A stretch of 59,225 nt of DNA from an uncultured Pseudomonadota bacterium (GTDB lineage Bacteria > Myxococcota_A > UBA796 > SXON01): the NCBI GenBank assembly GCA_903844155.1, contig CAIMSU010000294.1:1-59225 (forward strand), read 5' to 3'. Numbering within the stretch: the stretch's first letter is position 1; each line of letters begins with the position of its first letter. Below are positions 13,819 to 34,636 of the stretch, piece by piece. Made by a program: the position numbers and the translations under genes. Below the pieces are notes generated by a model. It did no database searches. It was not told the DNA's origin and saw only the letters and a program-made list of their open reading frames with translations.

Positions 13819-15330
13819 TCACCCCCTCCAAACCCCAAACTCTTCGCCCACCCCCGCGGCCGCCAGCACTCCGTTCTCCACAGCGCCATCATCGCTCTCG
13901 GGCTCGCAAAGATAGACCGCAATGGCACCCAGCGGCTGATCGGTCCTGACGCTCGCCCAGCCCGGCGGCAGCTCGCGGACCCGGCGCCGCCACGACACGC
14001 TCAGGCCCGCACGGCCTGAACCCTCAAGGATCCCGCGGCTGCCATCGCCACCCTCAACCGCCTCCACCGTCGCCACCTCAGCCTCGACCTGCCCCGAGGC
14101 CTCCCCGACGCCGAGCCCGTGCAGACGCAAGTGGGTCGCCAGAGCGGGTGGCACGAAGTATCCGACGGGGCGGGACACCACCTTCGTACCGACAAACCTG
14201 CCGATATGGGGGATGGTGACGGTCGACGGTTGCCCTGTGAGCGTACGCGGCGTGCGGGTGAGGATGGTGGCGGGCTCAGCAAACCGGTCGAGCCGGTAGC
14301 GGACGGCAACGCGGTCGGGCGGCGATTGACTTTCGGCCGCCACGCGCACGACGTCGACGGGGTGCGCGGCGACCCAGGTCAAAAGCTCGATCTGCCATAC
14401 CGCCGCCGTGGCGACGCGCTCCTCAAAAGGCAGGTAGCTGTAGCACTCCAGCAGCACGTCGAGACGGTTCGTCAAACCCCGGTAGTTGGAGCCGAAGCGG
14501 GGGTGATGCGGGTAGGTCATCCAACCCTCGCGCACGGGCGCACCTGCGTCGGGCGAGGCTTCTGCATCCAAGGCTCTCTCGTCCTCGACAAAGTTTCCGT
14601 ACCAGCCCGACGTGAACCCTCGCTTTGCGACGGCCGCCATCACTTCGGGGATCACGCGCCCGCGCATGAATTCAATCGGCTCGGAGCGCCCGCTCTGGAC
14701 GGTGTGCGGCACGTCCACGGTCATCTGGAAGCGGTGCACGGAGCCGTTGGTGGCGTGGTTGTCGATGGTGAGATCGGGGGCCCAGGGCTGGCAGACGCGG
14801 CTTTGGAGCAGGCGCATCTCGGGAGCAGCCTGTCGCAGGTAATCGCGGTTGAGGTTGATGCCGTGGCTCTGCGTGCGCGTGCCGACGACGGGACCGATCT
14901 GTCCCGAGAGATGCGCCACGTCCAACCTACGGTTCGCTGGGTCGAGGGCGTCGTTGCCGTCCGGGTTGAAGAGCGGGACGACGAGCAGGGTCAGGTGTTC
15001 GAGGATCGACCCAAGTGGCGAACCGGGGGCGAGCATGCCGCGAACCAGCGCGAGGCTCGCTTCCTTGCCTTCGACCTCGCCGGGGTGGATGCCGTCGAGC
15101 ATCAGGACCACGGGGAGTCCGAGCGCGCGCGCCTCCGCGGGGGTGCGAACGCCGCGCGTGGAGAGGATGAGCAGCGGAAGGTCGCGACCCTCGGGGCTGG
15201 TCCCAAACGAGGTGACGTGCAAGCGTGTGTCGCCCAGTGACCCAAGTCCCGCGATGAACGCCATCACGTCGGCATGGAGCGACGTCTCGCGAAAGCCCGT
15301 GCGCTCGGCTCGGGTCAGCAGCGCGCTCAC
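13819..15330 (-). CDS. M14-family zinc carboxypeptidase-like protein
   Basis: This 503-residue metallopeptidase is of the carboxypeptidase A superfamily. Zinc ligands are H82 and E85 (GIHPGEVEG) and H192 (TIDNHATNG). FNPDGND and INLNRDY (R162 region) are the usual substrate-carboxylate binding motifs, and LLECYS probably carries the catalytic Glu. No signal peptide is evident, so it may be cytoplasmic or exported by another route. The GTG start at 15330 lies 6 bp after the radical SAM stop, so the two are probably one leftward operon. The roughly 140-residue C-terminal part is a beta-rich accessory domain with no clear family. Confidence 0.87.
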   Translation of the reverse strand: MSALLTRAERTGFRETSLHADVMAFIAGLGSLGDTRLHVTSFGTSPEGRDLPLLILSTRGVRTPAEARALGLPVVLMLDGIHPGEVEGKEASLALVRGMLAPGSPLGSILEHLTLLVVPLFNPDGNDALDPANRRLDVAHLSGQIGPVVGTRTQSHGINLNRDYLRQAAPEMRLLQSRVCQPWAPDLTIDNHATNGSVHRFQMTVDVPHTVQSGRSEPIEFMRGRVIPEVMAAVAKRGFTSGWYGNFVEDERALDAEASPDAGAPVREGWMTYPHHPRFGSNYRGLTNRLDVLLECYSYLPFEERVATAAVWQIELLTWVAAHPVDVVRVAAESQSPPDRVAVRYRLDRFAEPATILTRTPRTLTGQPSTVTIPHIGRFVGTKVVSRPVGYFVPPALATHLRLHGLGVGEASGQVEAEVATVEAVEGGDGSRGILEGSGRAGLSVSWRRRVRELPPGWASVRTDQPLGAIAVYLCEPESDDGAVENGVLAAAGVGEEFGVWRG

Positions 15331-15336
15331 GCAGCG

Positions 15337-16917
15337 CTACCCATCGTACCACTCGGGTGTCACAAGTTGCTGGTATTGCTCGACTTTCAGCGGGTTCACG
15401 CGCTGCTTGATCGCGTCGATGGCCACGCTCGCGGAGACCTTGGCGAACCAGATGTACATGTCCCGCTTGTAGGGCACCCGCGACAAAAGCCCCTTCGCCA
15501 GCCACTTGTTGTTGACGAACTTCTTGTTCATCTCATAGAGCGAGACGGCGATCTCATCCCGGGTCATGTACTTTGTGTCGAGCACGGGGGAGAGCCAATC
15601 GAAATTGTCGAAGTCCTCCTCCGTGATCCAGCCTTTTGCGACCGCCTCGTCGTAGATTGGCGTGCCCGGAACGGGGGTGATCGGGTGGAAGGCTGGAAAG
15701 TCGATGTCGAGCTTGGAGGCCAGCGCGACCTGCTTCTGCAGGCTCTCGGGACTCTCATCCTTCACGCCCACGATGAACGTCGCCTGCACGAACACGTCCG
15801 GGTATTTCTCCTTGAAGATCTTCAGCGCAGCCTCCGCCACGCCGCCCGTGTAGAACCGCTTGTCCAGCAGCGTGAGCGAATCGTCCTCGGCCCGCTCGAC
15901 GCCGATCAGGATGTGCGAGAGCCCGGCCTGGATCATCTTTTCGAGGATGCCCTTCTTCTCGTCGCGCACGATGCAGTCCGCGCGCATGAACGCGAACCAC
16001 TTGGTCTTCATGCCGGACTTGATCATCGCGTCGCTGAACTGGTCGTTGAAGCGCGGGTCGATGTTCCAGCTCTCGTCCACCCAAACGTAGCTGCGCTTTC
16101 CGTAGCGGTAGTAGAGCTCAGAGATCTCCTCCATGACACGTTCGACCGACTTTGTACGCCAGCGTGGGGAGAGCTGGGCTTTTCCGTCTTCGTCGTACTT
16201 CCGGTCGGCCATTACCGTCCACCAGGCGCAAAAGCTGCACTTGGACACGCAGCCGCGGGAGTGGTGGATGGTCGTGCCGCCGGGCGAGAACAGGTAGCGG
16301 GATTTGCCGTAGAGGTGCATGGGGAGCAGATCGTAGGCGGGCATCGGCAGGAGGTCGAGGTCATGGATCAGCTTGCGCGTCTTCGTGCGGACGGGCTTTT
16401 CGCCGTCGTAGTAGGCGAGGCCGTCGACGGCGGCGAGGGGGTGGGCGGAGTCGGTGCCGACGGAGTGGGCGGTCGACGTGCTACGCGACCAGGCGTCCAC
16501 GGCGTCGACGATGGTCTCCTCGCCCTCGCCGATGCAGATGGCGTCGATGTCCGGCGCGGTGCCGTCTTTTTTCGCCTTGGAGTAGCGGTGCGAGAGGTTC
16601 GTGAAGTGTCCGCCGCCCGCGAGGGTTTTCGACCGCGGCGAGACCTCCTTGCACATGCGGAAGAAGCGCAGCGCCTCGCTCGCGTAGAGCGCGTGATTCT
16701 CCCCGGAGGCGATGACATCGGCGTCCAACCGCTTCAATTCGTCGGCGAGCGACGCCCAGCCGATGTGCAGGGGCATGCAGTCGATGACGTGCACGTCGTG
16801 GCCCGCGTCGCGCAAGGGCGCGGCAAGCGCCGGGAGCGCCTGCTGAAGGAGGAAATTGTCGCCTTCGCTGGTGTAAGGCCAGTATTTGCGAGGGGGTTGG
16901 ACCAGGACGACGCGCAC
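15337..16917 (-). CDS. B12-binding-domain radical SAM enzyme
   Basis: This is a 526-residue protein of the cobalamin-dependent radical SAM class. The N-terminal Rossmann-like B12-binding domain starts MRVVLVQPPRKYWPY and includes IDAICIGEGEETI (about residues 145-157). The radical SAM core has the cluster-binding CxxxCxxC in GCVSKCSFC (about residues 236-244), followed by GVERAEDDSL and a PVPGTPIYDEA segment. The lack of a classical DxHxxG motif suggests B12 may be bound base-off without the His ligand. Substrate is unknown: members methylate unactivated carbons or modify lipids and peptides. Pairing with an M14 peptidase suggests peptide modification and trimming, which is inference. Confidence 0.87.
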   Translation of the reverse strand: MRVVLVQPPRKYWPYTSEGDNFLLQQALPALAAPLRDAGHDVHVIDCMPLHIGWASLADELKRLDADVIASGENHALYASEALRFFRMCKEVSPRSKTLAGGGHFTNLSHRYSKAKKDGTAPDIDAICIGEGEETIVDAVDAWSRSTSTAHSVGTDSAHPLAAVDGLAYYDGEKPVRTKTRKLIHDLDLLPMPAYDLLPMHLYGKSRYLFSPGGTTIHHSRGCVSKCSFCAWWTVMADRKYDEDGKAQLSPRWRTKSVERVMEEISELYYRYGKRSYVWVDESWNIDPRFNDQFSDAMIKSGMKTKWFAFMRADCIVRDEKKGILEKMIQAGLSHILIGVERAEDDSLTLLDKRFYTGGVAEAALKIFKEKYPDVFVQATFIVGVKDESPESLQKQVALASKLDIDFPAFHPITPVPGTPIYDEAVAKGWITEEDFDNFDWLSPVLDTKYMTRDEIAVSLYEMNKKFVNNKWLAKGLLSRVPYKRDMYIWFAKVSASVAIDAIKQRVNPLKVEQYQQLVTPEWYDG

Positions 16918-17021: not shown

Positions 17022-17811
17022 ATGCGCCATCGCAACGCCCTCAGCTCCTGCCTGCTGGTGGTCGTCGAATCGCCCGGCTGCCACGCCCCGCGGTTCCTTG
17101 AGGTCGACACCGGCGGCGAAGCCACCCTCTCGCCCGAGTGCGGCAACGGCGACACCCTCGATCTGACGAGCGATGGCAGCGGTTTTGAGCAACTGGCGAT
17201 CCAGCTCCCGACCGGAGCCCGCGTGCTGCAGGTGCGGGCGTCGGCGGACGAGGGCAGGAAGACCCATGTCAATTGACTGGCCGATTCGCGCGGAGGATGG
17301 CGCGCTGGACCCTGGCGTCTGGACCGTGGGCATCTCAGTCGACCAGGCCGACGATGTCGACGCGTGGGACGCTCCCGTGCACGTCGCGCTCACCGTGGGC
17401 TGCGGTGCCGCCCCGCAGCGACTCCCGGTCATGGTGGTCCTCACCGGCGGGCTGGAGCAGGATGCCGTCAACTACCCAGTGTTTGAGGCTGCGATATCCC
17501 ATTGGGCCGACATCTTTGCGCAGGCCGACCTCGCCGGGTCGGATGGGCTTTTCGATGACGCGGAGGTCGAGCAGCTCGGCATCACCCTCGCTCACGAGGT
17601 CGGGCACTACCTTGGCCTGATGCACCCCGTCGAGGAGACGTGGGACGAGTACGACGCGCTGGACGACACCCCCTTTTGCACGGACACTCGCTCTTGCGAC
17701 CATGATCTGGCCACAAACCTCATGTTTCCTGTCGGCGATGCGGGGACGGCGCAGACCGACCTCACCCCCGACCAGATCGCCGTCCTGCAGAACTGGCCGG
17801 GGTTGGAGTGA
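17022..17811 (+). pseudogene. Decayed metzincin-type metalloprotease gene (paralogue of the next gene)
   Basis: This is a degenerate tandem copy of the gene at 17808. Two pieces in different frames match it. Residues encoded from ATG 17022 up to a stop at 17276 match its N-terminus and first 80 or so residues. From about 17266 the frame shifts, and DWPIRAEDG, VHVALT, DAVNYPVFEAAI, HEVGHYLGLMHPVEET and a Met-turn NLMF align with the intact copy. About 35 residues are missing at the frameshift and another 80 or so before the zinc motif. The lipobox is also poor (ESPGC). The HExxHxxGxxH motif is intact, and ATG 17266 could still express a short zinc-binding fragment, so partial function cannot be excluded. 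Confidence 0.75.
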
Positions 17812-18917
17812 GCCGCGCCCGCCTATTGCCCCTGGTCGCCGCCGCCCTCTTCGCGACCGGGTGCGAACCGGCGCATCGTGGGACCGCCCTGTTCTCGCGC
17901 GTGCTGCCTGCGGATTGCGGCGCTGTCAGCGAGGGCGAGGCGTGGATCAGCAACACGCAGATAGGCACGGTGGGGATCGCGATGCCCGAAGGGGCTGTGA
18001 GCATCCAGGCGCGCGTCTGGACGGATGATGGTGGAGAAACCCTCATCTCCGCCTTTCGGCGGCCGGACGGGTCGGCGGCGTTCGACTCGCAGTCGTGGAT
18101 CGGCGACCCCGACCAGCTCACCATGGCCTGGCTTGCCTCGCCCAAGGACACGGTGTTCGACTGGCCGATTCGGGCGGTGGACGGGACGCTGTTCGGGGGC
18201 GTCTGGGGGCTGGAGATCGCCTCGACGAACGCCGTGTCTGGGTTCATCGGGACGAATGTCCACGTCGCCCTCACGACACGCTGCTCGTCGACCGCGAGCA
18301 CGCTCCCCGTGACGGTGGCGCTCGCCGACGGTCTCGCGGACGACCCGGACAACTACCCTGTCATCGAGGACGCAATTGTGGACTGGGGCCAACTCTACGC
18401 GTCCTGGGGCATCGCCTTGGCGGTCTCGGAGGTGACCGCCGATATGGACTCGCCCCTGCCGCTCTCGGACGCCGCGGGCGACGCCTACGCCCAGGTCTAC
18501 GGGGAGAGCGGTGCCGTCGGCGTCCTTCTCGTTCTCGGCGACACGGTCGACGAGCCTGGTGTGGGCGGCGTGGACTTCTCCGTGCCCGGCGCGCTGGGGC
18601 CGTTGCCGGACGCCGCGTGCATCGTCGGCTGGCGGGACGTCTCTGGGCACGATGGGCCACTGCTCCCGTCGGACCGTCGCAGCCTCGCCGCCGTCATGGC
18701 CCACGAGGTTGGGCACTACATGGGGCTCGAGCATCCCGTCGAGGACACCTTCGACCAGTTTGACGCGCTGGACGACACCCCTCGATGCGACTCGGCCGAT
18801 GGCTGCTTGTCAGCGCTCGGGAGCAACCTGATGTACGGGCAGCCTGAGACCCCGCTCGGGGAAGATCTCACGCCCGAGCAGATCGCCGTCCTACACAACT
18901 GGCCGGGGTTGGAGTAG
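17808..18917 (+). CDS. Metzincin-family zinc metalloprotease lipoprotein
   Basis: This is a 369-residue exported protease. The signal peptide ends in a lipobox (FATGC). Zinc ligands H299, H303 and H309 lie in HEVGHYMGLEH, with E300 catalytic, and a Met-turn follows at about M342 (SNLMYG). This is the metzincin signature. Overall it recalls M43/M10-like families, but I cannot name the family with confidence. The last residues DLTPEQIAVLHNWPG resemble the ends of other secreted metzincins. The GTG start overlaps the stop of the decayed upstream copy (GTGA), so the pair arose by tandem duplication. Confidence 0.85.
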   Translation: MSRARLLPLVAAALFATGCEPAHRGTALFSRVLPADCGAVSEGEAWISNTQIGTVGIAMPEGAVSIQARVWTDDGGETLISAFRRPDGSAAFDSQSWIGDPDQLTMAWLASPKDTVFDWPIRAVDGTLFGGVWGLEIASTNAVSGFIGTNVHVALTTRCSSTASTLPVTVALADGLADDPDNYPVIEDAIVDWGQLYASWGIALAVSEVTADMDSPLPLSDAAGDAYAQVYGESGAVGVLLVLGDTVDEPGVGGVDFSVPGALGPLPDAACIVGWRDVSGHDGPLLPSDRRSLAAVMAHEVGHYMGLEHPVEDTFDQFDALDDTPRCDSADGCLSALGSNLMYGQPETPLGEDLTPEQIAVLHNWPGLE

Positions 18918-18938: not shown

Positions 18939-19928
18939 CTACTTCGGCTTCGCCACCCCCACCCAGGCCCGGTTCAGCTCCCGCGACACGGGGTGTGCCT
19001 CGAAGCGTTCCTCCCACGCCAGCAGTTGCGCGAGCGCCTCCGGATCCCCGCGCCCGCCCCCATGCGCGATGTCGGCGCCGACCGCCAGCTCGAACGGCCC
19101 GGAGAGGACGTAGTGTGACCGCTGTAAACGAACGTCAAACCCCGCGAACAGCGTCTCCAGGTCGAGGTCCGAGTAGCACCGCACGTACCTGTCGCCCGCG
19201 CGATGGGCGACGCCGTCAAAGAAGCCCTCCGCGAGTCCAGGCGCCACGTCCGTCGCCAGCGCCCACCCGTAGCGGGCCTCGACGGAAAAAAGGACGACGC
19301 CGTCCTCGGTCAAACGCTCGGCGACAGCGGCGACGACGTCTGCGGGCCGCTCCACGTAGTTAAGGATCTCGGCCATCACGACGATGTCGTAGCGGCCGAT
19401 CTCGTCGACAGGCGGCAGATCCTCGGCGGTGGTCCAGTGGACGTCGAGGCGCCCGGGCGCGCCCGCGCAGTGCCAGACCGCGTGACGGAGGGAGCGCAGG
19501 TCTCCGTCGACCAGGGTGACGTCGTGGCCGAGATCGAGGAACCAACGGGCGAAGCGGCCGACGCCGCAGCCGATGTCGAGGACCCGGAGGGGCTTGCTGG
19601 CCTCCACCCCTCCCAACCCGCCCAGCGCGCGCCATCGGTGGAGCGTCAGCGCGCGCTCCAGCATTTTCTTGTCGTGGACGGGGCTGGAGGGCTCAAGCGT
19701 GTCGACGTAGTCGGCGTACTCGGCCCAGCCGTCGACGTAGCCGGCGAGGTTGGCGAGGGCGGCGACGGGCTCCCGGCCGCCGGCGTTCAGGCCACGAAGT
19801 CGGGGGTCCCGCGGCGGTAGGTCAAATTCGACGCCGACCCAGTCCAGCAGCGCCTCAGCGGCGAACGGAGGGCCCGGCGGGAGGGCTGGGGCGCCGGCGA
19901 GGGGGACGGTGGCGCGGGCGAGGGACAT
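18939..19928 (-). CDS. Class I SAM-dependent methyltransferase
   Basis: This 329-residue protein has a clear Rossmann SAM-binding core in the middle: motif I VLDIGCGVGRFARWF, acidic motif II TLVDGD, and a motif IV region DIVVMAEILNYV. An N-terminal extension of about 110 residues contains EYADYVDTLEPSS. It is UbiG/methyltransf_11-like, and the substrate is unknown. The ATG at 19928 (MSLARATV) was chosen because the longer frame upstream is Arg-rich and unlike protein. It is convergent with the metzincin gene, with only 21 bp between the stops and no obvious terminator. Confidence 0.85.
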   Translation of the reverse strand: MSLARATVPLAGAPALPPGPPFAAEALLDWVGVEFDLPPRDPRLRGLNAGGREPVAALANLAGYVDGWAEYADYVDTLEPSSPVHDKKMLERALTLHRWRALGGLGGVEASKPLRVLDIGCGVGRFARWFLDLGHDVTLVDGDLRSLRHAVWHCAGAPGRLDVHWTTAEDLPPVDEIGRYDIVVMAEILNYVERPADVVAAVAERLTEDGVVLFSVEARYGWALATDVAPGLAEGFFDGVAHRAGDRYVRCYSDLDLETLFAGFDVRLQRSHYVLSGPFELAVGADIAHGGGRGDPEALAQLLAWEERFEAHPVSRELNRAWVGVAKPK

Positions 19929-20032: not shown

Positions 20033-20061
20033 TTGACAACACGACCCGGCCCGGCGACACT
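20033..20061 (+). promoter_or_regulatory. Candidate promoter of the 15-codon mini-gene
   Basis: A perfect -35 hexamer TTGACA (20033-20038) is followed after 17 bp by GACACT (20056-20061), which matches 3 of 6 positions of the -10 consensus. It points at the SD/ATG pair at 20075-20086 and would give a leader of only about 15 bases. Confidence 0.45.
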
Positions 20062-20083
20062 ACGTACACCCTTTGGAGGTCTC

Positions 20084-20131
20084 ATGAACTGGCGTCCCTC
20101 TCCCCGTCCCAAGCCCGGCCCGAAGCAGTAA
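20084..20131 (+). CDS. Putative 15-residue Pro/Lys/Arg-rich micropeptide
   Basis: ATG 20084 is preceded by GGAGG five bases upstream (20075-20079) and opens a 15-codon frame reading MNWRPSPRPKPGPKQ, then TAA. A promoter-like pair lies before it and a strong intrinsic terminator begins 20 bp after the stop, so the whole resembles a complete, freestanding transcription unit. The peptide is basic and proline-rich, with no hydrophobic segment. It is not followed on this strand by a gene it could attenuate. It may be a real micropeptide, or the ORF may be the leader of a small RNA. I do not recognise it. Confidence 0.5.
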   Translation: MNWRPSPRPKPGPKQ

Positions 20132-20151
20132 TCGGTCCCCTTGGTTCGCCC

Positions 20152-20186
20152 GAACGGGAGGCTTTTCGCCTCCCGTTCCTGTTTTT
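20152..20186 (+). terminator. Rho-independent terminator
   Basis: An 11-bp perfect stem (GAACGGGAGGC at 20152-20162 pairing with GCCTCCCGTTC at 20168-20178) with a 5-base loop TTTTC is followed by CTGTTTTT. This is the strongest intrinsic terminator I found in the window. The T-run places it on the + strand, ending the mini-gene rather than the leftward EnvC-like gene. The hairpin could still protect that transcript's 3' end. Confidence 0.85.
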
Positions 20187-20232: not shown

Positions 20233-21354
20233 TCAACCGCCCGGCTGCAGCCAGGGCGTCGGGTCCTGCGGCGTACCGTTGTAGCGGACCTCAAAATGCA
20301 GCCGGGCCTCGCTCTCGTCGAGCAATCCGGTCGAGCCGACGAGCCCGAGGACATCGCCTGCGTGCACGTCCTGGCCCTGGGACACCCGCAGGCCGTTCGC
20401 GTGCGCGTAGAGCGTGGCGTACGCCCCGTGGGTGACCATCACGACCTGCCCGTAGCCACGGACGTAGCCGGAGCGCGCCACGTTCCCAGAGAACACCGCG
20501 CGGAACGGCGTGCCCGGCGCTGCGGCGATGTCGAGGCCGAGGTTCTGGAGCGTTTGCTGTGTCGCGGGGTCGGTGTACGGGCCCCAGCCGACGACGATGC
20601 GGCCGTGCAGGGGCCACGGCAGGCTGCCCCGGGCGGCGCGGAAAGCGTCGGATCCGGACGCGGGTGACGGGGTCGCCGGTGGCGCCTCCCCGCTGTGGTC
20701 GATGGTGATGACGGGCGTGGCGGTACCGTCGCCCAGACCTGCGACGCTCGCCTCAAAATCGGCGTGCGCGCGCTGGGATTCGGCGCCGTACTGCCCGGAG
20801 AGGACCGGGCTCGCTTGAACGGAGCGGAGCAGGGCGACCCGATGGGCCCGCTCCTCCTTGAGCTGATCGCGTTGCTTTGCACGGTCAGCCGACAATGCAG
20901 CGAGCGCCTTCAGCTCGGCATCCGCGGCGTTCGCGGCCTTTGTTCGAGCGTCGACCGCGGCGCCGAAGCTGGTGAGCGCAGCGTCCTGGGAGCGGACGGT
21001 GTCGAGGAGGTAATGGACGCGGCGACGGAGCTCGTCCGGGCTCTGCGCGTCGAAGAGCAGACGGGCAAAACCCCGGCGTTGGAGGCGGTAGGCGGCGCGG
21101 AGGCCAGCATCGACGGCGGTTCGGCGCCGAGTGACCTCGGCGGTGGCTGTTTCCTCGTCGCTCTGGTGGGCGGCGAGGTCGGCGCGGACAGCGTCCTCCT
21201 GCTGCGTGGTTGCGAGGTCGGCCTTGTCGAGGTCCACGAGCTGGGCGTCGTACCGGGCGATCTCGTCGAGGATGCCGCGGGTGCCGGGATCCTCGGCGCG
21301 CGCCGTCGCGCCTGCCAGCATGGCGACGAGGACGAGCCCACCTCTACAATTCAC
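20233..21354 (-). CDS. EnvC-like murein hydrolase activator (coiled coil + LytM domain)
   Basis: This is a 373-residue periplasmic protein. A signal peptide (GLVLVAMLAGATARA) is followed by about 190 residues of coiled coil (from ILDEIARYDAQLVDLDKA) and a C-terminal LytM/M23 domain. The first zinc-ligand position of active M23 enzymes (HxGxD) reads NLGLD here, while the YAHANG and LHFEVR histidines remain. The domain is therefore partly degenerate, as in E. coli EnvC, which activates amidases rather than cutting peptidoglycan itself. Its GTG start overlaps the ftsX stop, giving the order ftsE-ftsX-envC, which supports a role in FtsEX-controlled cell separation. Confidence 0.88.
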   Translation of the reverse strand: MNCRGGLVLVAMLAGATARAEDPGTRGILDEIARYDAQLVDLDKADLATTQQEDAVRADLAAHQSDEETATAEVTRRRTAVDAGLRAAYRLQRRGFARLLFDAQSPDELRRRVHYLLDTVRSQDAALTSFGAAVDARTKAANAADAELKALAALSADRAKQRDQLKEERAHRVALLRSVQASPVLSGQYGAESQRAHADFEASVAGLGDGTATPVITIDHSGEAPPATPSPASGSDAFRAARGSLPWPLHGRIVVGWGPYTDPATQQTLQNLGLDIAAAPGTPFRAVFSGNVARSGYVRGYGQVVMVTHGAYATLYAHANGLRVSQGQDVHAGDVLGLVGSTGLLDESEARLHFEVRYNGTPQDPTPWLQPGG

Positions 21355-33884: not shown

Positions 33885-34636
33885 GTTGGACGGACGAGGG
33901 ACTGGTGGCGACCTACACGATCGACCGGCCCGCCGCGCGAAACGCGCTGGACCTGGCGACGATCGAGGAATTGATGGCGGGGTTGGAGGAGCGGGCGGGA
34001 AGCTCGGACCTTCGCGTCGTCGTGGTGACGGGCGCCGGGTCCAAGGCTTTCTGCGCGGGCGCGGACCTGGCGGGGCTGGCCGGAAACCCCGGTGCGAGGC
34101 GGACAGCGGGCGCCCGCTACGCGGCCCTGCTGGCGCGGATGCTCGGGTACCCGCGCCCGATCGTCGCACGGGTGAACGGCGCGTGCATGGCAGGCGGCTG
34201 GGGGCTGCTGCTGGCCTGCGATCTCGCCGTGGCCGTCGACACCGCGACGTTCCAACTGCCCGAGGTGAACGTCGGGATGTGGCCGATGATGGTCGGCGCG
34301 TTGCTCGTGCCGCTTGTTGGGCGCCGGACCGCGCTGGACCTGGCGTTGACCGCGCGCAAGCTGGACGCGGGGGAGGCGCTGCGGCTCGGGTTGGTCAACC
34401 GGGTCGTCCCGGACCTGGGCGCCGGGGTGGCCGACGTCGTCGCCAGCCTGCTCCGGGTGAGCCCCTCTGCGCTTCGAATCGGGCGCGGCGCCTGGGCCAT
34501 GGCCGACGGCAAGCCCGTCGCCGACGCGCTCCCCGCCCTCGCCGACGCGCTCGGGGACTTGATGGAGACGGAGGACGCGACCGAGGGCTTCGTCGCGTTC
34601 CTCGAGAAGCGGCCGGCGGTCTGGCGGGATCGGTAG
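33881..34636 (+). CDS. Enoyl-CoA hydratase/isomerase (crotonase) family protein
   Basis: This 251-residue crotonase-fold protein has an oxyanion-hole region KAFCAGADLAGLAG (about residues 47-60), NGACMAGGWGLLLACDLAVA and FQLPEVNVGMWP. Of the two catalytic glutamates of classical hydratases, only the second (LPEV) is present. The first position is Leu, as in several methylglutaconyl-CoA hydratase-like or decarboxylase members. The gene order carboxylase, biotin carrier, crotonase recalls leucine or isoprenoid catabolism (liu/atu) clusters, but the carboxyltransferase gene is not in the window. Confidence 0.87.
   Translation: MSWTDEGLVATYTIDRPAARNALDLATIEELMAGLEERAGSSDLRVVVVTGAGSKAFCAGADLAGLAGNPGARRTAGARYAALLARMLGYPRPIVARVNGACMAGGWGLLLACDLAVAVDTATFQLPEVNVGMWPMMVGALLVPLVGRRTALDLALTARKLDAGEALRLGLVNRVVPDLGAGVADVVASLLRVSPSALRIGRGAWAMADGKPVADALPALADALGDLMETEDATEGFVAFLEKRPAVWRDR

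Follow-up and report, generated by a model that had tools for sequence, protein, structure and literature searches.

The 59,225-nt stretch of DNA analysed here (the window) carries a 15-codon gene that is conserved in frame, promoter and ribosome-binding site, whose amino-acid sequence is under selection, and which is linked to and co-occurs with genes for two B12-binding radical SAM enzymes and a SAM-dependent methyltransferase. Judged by its pattern of codon changes, the 154-bp unit at 20033-20186 is a real protein-coding micro-gene. The strict conservation of its product, which we term the “WRP peptide”, together with the association with B12-dependent radical enzymes, suggests that the peptide is probably the raw material of an undescribed modified peptide. 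Our preferred explanation, which we consider probable, is that it is a leaderless RiPP-like precursor (or scaffold) that acts in trans, is modified by the two radical SAM enzymes (rSAMa and rSAMb) and the methyltransferase, and represents a new family.

The unit lies on the forward strand. Its -35 box TTGACA (20033-20038), read from the sequence, is separated by 17 nt from a -10 box, GACACT (20056-20061), and a Shine-Dalgarno sequence GGAGG (20075-20079) stands 4 nt 5′ of the ATG at 20084. This start codon opens a 15-codon ORF (20084-20131 including the TAA) encoding a basic, proline-alternating peptide of 15 residues, MNWRPSPRPKPGPKQ. An intrinsic terminator with an 11-bp stem, a 5-nt loop and a T run follows at 20152-20186; the stem (20152-20178) has 11 pairs, 8 of them G-C, and is followed by CTGTTTTT, the T run extending to 20186. 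All of these elements, which the original prediction had placed within 154 bp, are thus read there. A generic sigma-70 scan reports no promoter at 20033-20061 because the -10 box agrees with TATAAT at 3 of 6 positions only. The fold stability of the whole 154 nt is ordinary (z -0.99), the hairpin alone standing out, and an Rfam search gave no family at 20033-20186. The unit has no plasmid match and no second copy in its own genome at E values up to 0.001, and we accordingly rejected both a plasmid-borne and a repeated element.

We compared the surroundings of 51 homologous ORFs from 50 genomes with 30 rounds of dinucleotide shuffles. TTGACA with at most one mismatch, followed after 16-18 nt by nAnnnT, is found upstream of 45 of the 51 ORFs (shuffles mean 2.3, maximum 5) and a Shine-Dalgarno match at 47 (mean 6.6, maximum 14), while a terminator-like hairpin is found at 16 (mean 5.9, maximum 10), including 5/5 of the window's genus. 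The -10 box is GACACT in all five genomes of this genus and AACGAT, CATGAT, TATTAT and others elsewhere. The joint presence of promoter, ribosome-binding site and ORF is far beyond chance, and chance assembly of the motifs is ruled out by these shuffle comparisons. The difference in frequency between the hairpin and the other signals indicates that promoter, ribosome-binding site and ORF are general, and that the terminated form belongs mainly to the window's genus. Accordingly, the description of a self-contained unit holds for the window and its genus, but not as a general feature.

Selection acts on the amino-acid sequence. Among 34 genomes from a plain nucleotide search, with each ORF chosen by motif score, pairs of sequences differ on average by 0.05, 0.05 and 0.35 at the first, second and third codon positions, pN/pS is 0.10 (0.25 for all 51 ORFs), and the 31 distinct DNA cores translate into 8 peptide cores. 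Furthermore, comparison of the repeat copies within each of the 12 genomes with three copies gave 147 synonymous (349 sites) against 2 nonsynonymous changes (947 sites), indicating that each repeat is constrained to the same peptide. The prediction of a Pro/Lys/Arg-rich micropeptide gene that ORF callers miss survived both kinds of comparison, frame, start, ribosome-binding site, promoter and peptide all being conserved and the changes being biased towards synonymous ones. A small RNA with an incidental ORF, or a chance assembly of motifs, would suit a short transcript framed by promoter and terminator, but selection at the amino-acid level mainly rules out a reading as small RNA only, the terminator is not general, and neither Rfam nor the overall fold points to a structured RNA. 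We find this explanation scarcely credible, and the earlier suggestion of a small RNA as the main function is unsupported because selection acts on amino acids.

Of the 71 genomes that represent the window's class (Myxococcota), 46 contain a homologous micro-ORF. By family, the peptide was found in 22/22 genomes of f1, 2/2 of f2, 9/10 of f4, 3/4 of f5, 4/4 of f6 and 6/6 of f7; the sole f4 genome lacking it, G033, has a contig that stops just past the methyltransferase. It was found in none of the single genomes of f8 and f9 (0/1 each) and in 0/21 of f3, an absence assessed with patterns having one residue between Met and Trp and with nucleotide BLAST, which divergent forms could escape. A pattern match in the f3 genome G044 was set aside by eye as chance. 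When a stricter pattern was run over 377 genomes of the phylum, 37 had a match, each of them one of the 71 class genomes; the reversed pattern had no match. In a scan of named genomes, pattern matches outside the family were, among the matches listed and by eye, mostly chance overlaps without a ribosome-binding site.

In a nucleotide search of 93 genomes, including the window's own, the entire unit recurs in the genus's four remaining genomes (75-86% identity), which have equivalent terminator hairpins. Many further families share a core of some 50 bp that comprises the ribosome-binding site and the ORF, and several genomes carry this core in tandem at a spacing of 39 bp. The translations form one peptide family, MNWRPSPRPKPGPK(K/Q/A), some forms having a short C-terminal tail. 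Twelve genomes carry three tandem copies of the 13-residue unit, a form that reads WRPSPRPKPGPK x 3 linked by Ala or Ser. Distant members include MNWRPAPIPKPTPKPRPKD, MNWRPTPAPKPRPKPE and MNWRPSPRPRPLPKRPR, and the ORF of G003 starts with TTG. The peptide of G008 was recognised by eye and left out of the counts of codon changes and of promoter, Shine-Dalgarno and hairpin. W-R-P is present in 57/57 peptides, a conservation that is in part a consequence of its use in the searches. In these 57 peptides Pro alternates with Arg/Lys and the net charge is +2 to +13. Few residues precede the conserved W and the unit is followed by a short tail; there is no separate leader or follower segment. Three peptides of 20-41 residues matched no NCBIfam family at E values up to 0.1, the 15-mer being below the tool's 20-residue minimum.

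The peptide gene of the window lies between two genes on the reverse strand: a divergent class I SAM-dependent methyltransferase (18939-19928; Pfam Methyltransf_23/11/12/25) and an M23 peptidase (20233-21354), after which come FtsX- and ABC-type genes. The original prediction had taken both flanking genes to be leftward and unrelated; both are leftward, but the methyltransferase is related: 38 of the 46 peptide-bearing class genomes have it next to the peptide gene. In 29 of these the two genes run in the same direction with the peptide first, and in nine, namely the five of the window's genus, three of f5 and G022, they are divergent. Eight genomes have no adjacent methyltransferase, namely all six of f7, G031, and G006, in which the two genes are each located at the end of a contig. 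The same-direction arrangement, sometimes with a hairpin between ORF and methyltransferase, is what would be expected of a cis-acting leader ORF at which ribosome stalling controls the downstream methyltransferase/rSAM operon. Such attenuation is, however, largely ruled out by the divergent arrangement in nine of the 46 genomes, one of them the window's, where the unit has a terminator of its own. Because the peptide is retained where it is divergent from or unlinked to the methyltransferase, the leader peptide that had been proposed is unsupported, and the tandem tripling occurs at the protein level. We consider this mechanism very improbable; as explanations of the peptide gene, a cis-acting leader and a pure small RNA are both unlikely.

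The methyltransferase is accompanied by a B12-binding, BchE-like radical SAM enzyme, rSAMa (15337-16917, reverse strand; Pfam B12-binding and Radical_SAM, below every named-family cut-off). Relatives of rSAMa, counted at E values of at most 1e-60, are present in 47 of the 71 class genomes, and 45 genomes hold both peptide and rSAMa, one the peptide only, two rSAMa only and 23 neither. The genome with the peptide only is G069 (79% complete), and those with rSAMa only are G033, with its contig break, and G065, which has only a 39%-identical paralogue. The second B12-binding radical SAM enzyme, rSAMb, is encoded on another contig in the window's genome and within several kb of the peptide in some f1 genomes. 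It is present in 46 of the 71 genomes; among the 46 peptide-bearing genomes only G045 (78% complete) is without it. Both enzymes are absent from f3 (rSAMa 0/21, rSAMb 0/21), which retains a methyltransferase homologue in 14/21 genomes. Family f7, outside the order, has the peptide in 6/6 genomes, immediately downstream of rSAMb in 4/6, together with rSAMb in 6/6 and rSAMa in 5/6. Since f7 retains the peptide, rSAMb and mostly rSAMa, the joint absence in f3 looks like joint loss, and may be a single evolutionary event. A signalling peptide, as once suggested, may still apply, but the strongest association is with the two B12-binding radical SAM enzymes and the methyltransferase, which had gone unseen.

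Several other genes were observed around these loci. In the window, an M14 zinc carboxypeptidase (13819-15330, reverse strand) directly adjoins rSAMa. A tandem pair of similar genes that share an HEVGHYxGxxHP motif, the second having a weak matrixin match, separates rSAMa from the methyltransferase and runs the other way (17173-18917, forward strand); three further members of the genus have rSAMa and the methyltransferase contiguous, without this pair. At ten genus g3 loci, including L052, L078 and L082, a large secreted metallopeptidase-like protein (HEVxHGIHEY, by eye) is divergent from the peptide, and arylsulfotransferase-like proteins (PF05935, one member tested) lie downstream in several g3 loci.

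Next we considered what kind of enzymes these are. The B12-binding (PF02310) and Radical_SAM (PF04055) domains of rSAMa are above cut-off, and the cysteines of its CxxxCxxC motif (C223, C227 and C230) are invariant in 26 sequences; rSAMa is a B12-binding (class B) radical SAM enzyme. Against NCBIfam, rSAMa reaches the cut-off of none of the 20 families listed, the best being BchE (166 bits, cut-off 481), with TIGR03975 at 58 bits (cut-off 281.85). For rSAMb the best is again BchE (232 bits, cut-off 481), and ApyD scores 130 (cut-off 750). The AlphaFold model of rSAMa (mean pLDDT 85) matches AprD4 (Z 28.2, rmsd 3.0, 412 aligned), CysS (Z 25.9, rmsd 3.3, 417 aligned), TsrM (Z 25.1, rmsd 3.8, 434 aligned) and MgmA (Z 25.0, rmsd 3.2, 381 aligned); these matches of a predicted structure correspond to the general class B radical SAM fold and assign no substrate. 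The methyltransferase is modelled (pLDDT 94.9) as a common class I fold, and the top matches of its fold search include CmoM, TM1389 and the methyltransferase BamL of the RiPP plantazolicin. The presence of plantazolicin methyltransferases among these matches of a model is suggestive only and does not identify the substrate.

The linkage is re-formed in a second lineage, which comprises the named genomes fen_1099 and FR_14, among the matches listed, and three relatives. An operon in the order peptide-methyltransferase-rSAMb-rSAMa is present at L299, L313 and L315, and L314 has peptide-methyltransferase followed by the contig end. The FR_14 locus L302 has the order methyltransferase-peptide-rSAMb-rSAMa with extra genes included; its frames are broken by apparent frameshifts and were searched as separate, unmended pieces. 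A tryptophan-halogenase-like frame (PF04820), apparently broken as well, lies inside this cluster (L302:9733-11451, reverse strand) and is of interest because the Trp of the peptide is conserved. In fen_1099, a second peptide at L300 accompanies a second radical SAM cluster with diverged relatives of rSAMa and rSAMb (37% and 47% identity), and no methyltransferase was found in this cluster.

As a test of prediction, we searched the second-lineage rSAMa against the 377 genomes of the phylum and inspected the flanks of its relatives in other classes for peptides. A divergent WRP peptide was found at five of the seven other-class loci with usable flanks, and these five are all the loci of families f16 and f12 with the closest rSAMa relatives. 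The ORFs of G225 (MTNWRPAPKPAPRPIPRPQPKP), G094 (MLISWRPAPKPTPRPAPGPYPKP) and G121 (MMHSWRPAPKPSPRPVPKPRP) each lie just upstream of rSAMa, and those of G160 (MKHWRPAPKPRPRPSPSPKP) and G218 (MENWRPNPKPSPRPAPKPGMPKPFA) lie about 4-5 kb from rSAMa in the same cluster. Earlier patterns missed most of these peptides because they have two or three residues between Met and Trp. No peptide was seen at the rSAMa relatives of G233 (f36) and G179 (f40), nor at eight further loci with weaker rSAMa paralogues (about 36-41% identical); the contigs of G168, G203 and G253 end too near rSAMa, and these three stand outside the seven loci. By the same peptide criterion, neither 300 shuffled loci nor 42 control loci (270,859 bp), eleven of them rSAM loci without peptide, yielded a hit. 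Thus, the rule that rSAMa predicts a WRP peptide yielded five new peptides.

These results bear on the possibility of an independent small protein, ribosome- or nucleic-acid-binding or a secreted signal, whose linkage to the enzymes is inherited synteny. The alternation of Pro with Arg/Lys and the positive charge would suit such a protein, as would the lack of linkage to the methyltransferase in f7 and G031. Oncocin and apidaecin, proline-rich antimicrobial peptides of animal immunity, likewise alternate Arg/Lys with Pro, and the WRP peptide may resemble this type. Unlike them, it is the product of a conserved chromosomal bacterial gene tied to B12-dependent radical SAM enzymes. Linkage has, however, been re-formed with different members of the enzyme set across lineages, the peptide is absent together with both radical SAM enzymes, and new peptides were correctly predicted from rSAMa, which leaves an independent protein improbable.

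The main alternative to a precursor is an unmodified accessory subunit, chaperone or regulator of the rSAM and methyltransferase enzymes, which would then work on a small molecule (e.g. BchE- or HpnJ-like tetrapyrrole or lipid chemistry). Co-occurrence with rSAMa and rSAMb would also be expected of such a peptide, its basic, proline-alternating composition is typical of binding motifs, and the BchE and HpnJ models give the best scores of rSAMa and rSAMb. These scores are all far under the named-family cut-offs, however, and tripling with strictly conserved units suits a multi-core substrate at least equally. We regard an accessory peptide as rather unlikely. Some observations nevertheless count against the precursor: the leader or follower segment usual in most RiPP precursors is absent, we recognised neither a dedicated exporter nor a leader protease, and since the best score of rSAMa, far below cut-off, is to the tetrapyrrole enzyme BchE, the substrate of the enzymes could be a small molecule. 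Furthermore, the peptide is not beside the methyltransferase in the six f7 genomes and G031, and G065 and several paralogous rSAM loci are without peptide.

For the modified precursor that we favour, the following route can be proposed. The peptide would be expressed from its own sigma-70-type promoter, probably in quantity, and, too short for a separate leader, would act in trans. The W-R-P-x-P-[RK]-P-[KR]-P-x-P-[K] unit would serve as recognition site and core, probably bound and modified as a whole, so that tripled units would give three cores per translation. rSAMa and rSAMb may C-methylate a Trp, Pro, Arg or Lys residue or modify it by other radical chemistry, and the methyltransferase at 18939-19928 may add a further methyl group; the modified peptide would then presumably be exported as the product. 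We infer modification of the peptide by these enzymes and a small cofactor-like, metal-binding or signalling product, not a fast-evolving toxin, the strict conservation of the unit across families making a physiological product likely rather than an arms-race antibiotic. Tentatively, and with somewhat less than even confidence, we suggest that WRP peptides form an undescribed class of leaderless, B12-radical-SAM-dependent ribosomal products in Myxococcota, with the unit of about 13 residues, single or in triplet, as recognition site and core, and with a likely cofactor, metallophore or signal (PQQ-like biology) as product in place of an arms-race antibiotic.

Very short RiPP precursors, of about 7 to 24 residues, include PqqA and MccA of microcin C, the latter leaderless. 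Their enzymes, the SPASM radical SAM enzyme PqqE and an adenylyltransferase, respectively, differ from the WRP set, and we know of no sequence similarity of the WRP peptide to MccA or PqqA. Passages of two published papers describe enzymes of types that C-methylate or rearrange peptides, and these underlie the modification proposed here (PMC5682303, PMC11117315). In bottromycin and polytheonamide, B12-dependent radical SAM enzymes methylate ribosomal peptides, at sites that include a proline in bottromycin, according to passages of PMC5682303; the enzyme type is alike, but rSAMa reaches only the 58 bits mentioned above against TIGR03975. The apy (aminopyruvatide) cluster ApyA/ApyD/ApyS is described in passages of PMC11117315 as having a ribosomal peptide, a cobalamin-dependent radical SAM enzyme that C-methylates Tyr and a SAM methyltransferase. 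Like this cluster, rSAMa, rSAMb and their second-lineage relatives match the NCBIfam model ApyD, but at 62 to 130 bits, far below the cut-off of 750. The apy precursor, in the same passages, is sequence-diverse, with a CBX2-3G motif and a C-terminal Asp, and is accompanied by an MNIO and a P450 (PMC11117315), whereas the WRP peptide is a strictly conserved 15-mer without leader, with two B12-binding radical SAM enzymes. Our literature search, covering openly licensed PMC papers only, found nothing on the WRP peptide, and string matches to it in cancer and HLA papers were dismissed as chance. A peptide with B12-dependent radical SAM enzymes is of a known kind; a strictly conserved, leaderless, tandem-repeated 13-residue unit is undescribed in the literature searched.

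A 15-codon gene that pipelines would not list ranks with the better-conserved features of this region and is retained by dozens of uncultured genomes. If the peptide is the substrate, orphan B12-dependent radical SAM families gain a testable target, a very short, leaderless, tandem-core precursor is added for these enzymes, and peptide natural products or cofactors can hide under ORF-length cut-offs.

Two minor observations concern the window and the genome records. A Guanidine-II riboswitch match (34399-34448, reverse strand; 32.5 bits, cut-off 32) lies antisense within a frame that by eye is enoyl-CoA hydratase-like, and is probably chance. The MAG records CAMAWH01, CALQBK02 and CAMBIK01 (L131, L163 and L189), labelled Klebsiella pneumoniae or Bifidobacterium breve, hold loci of the window's class, and their labels look wrong.
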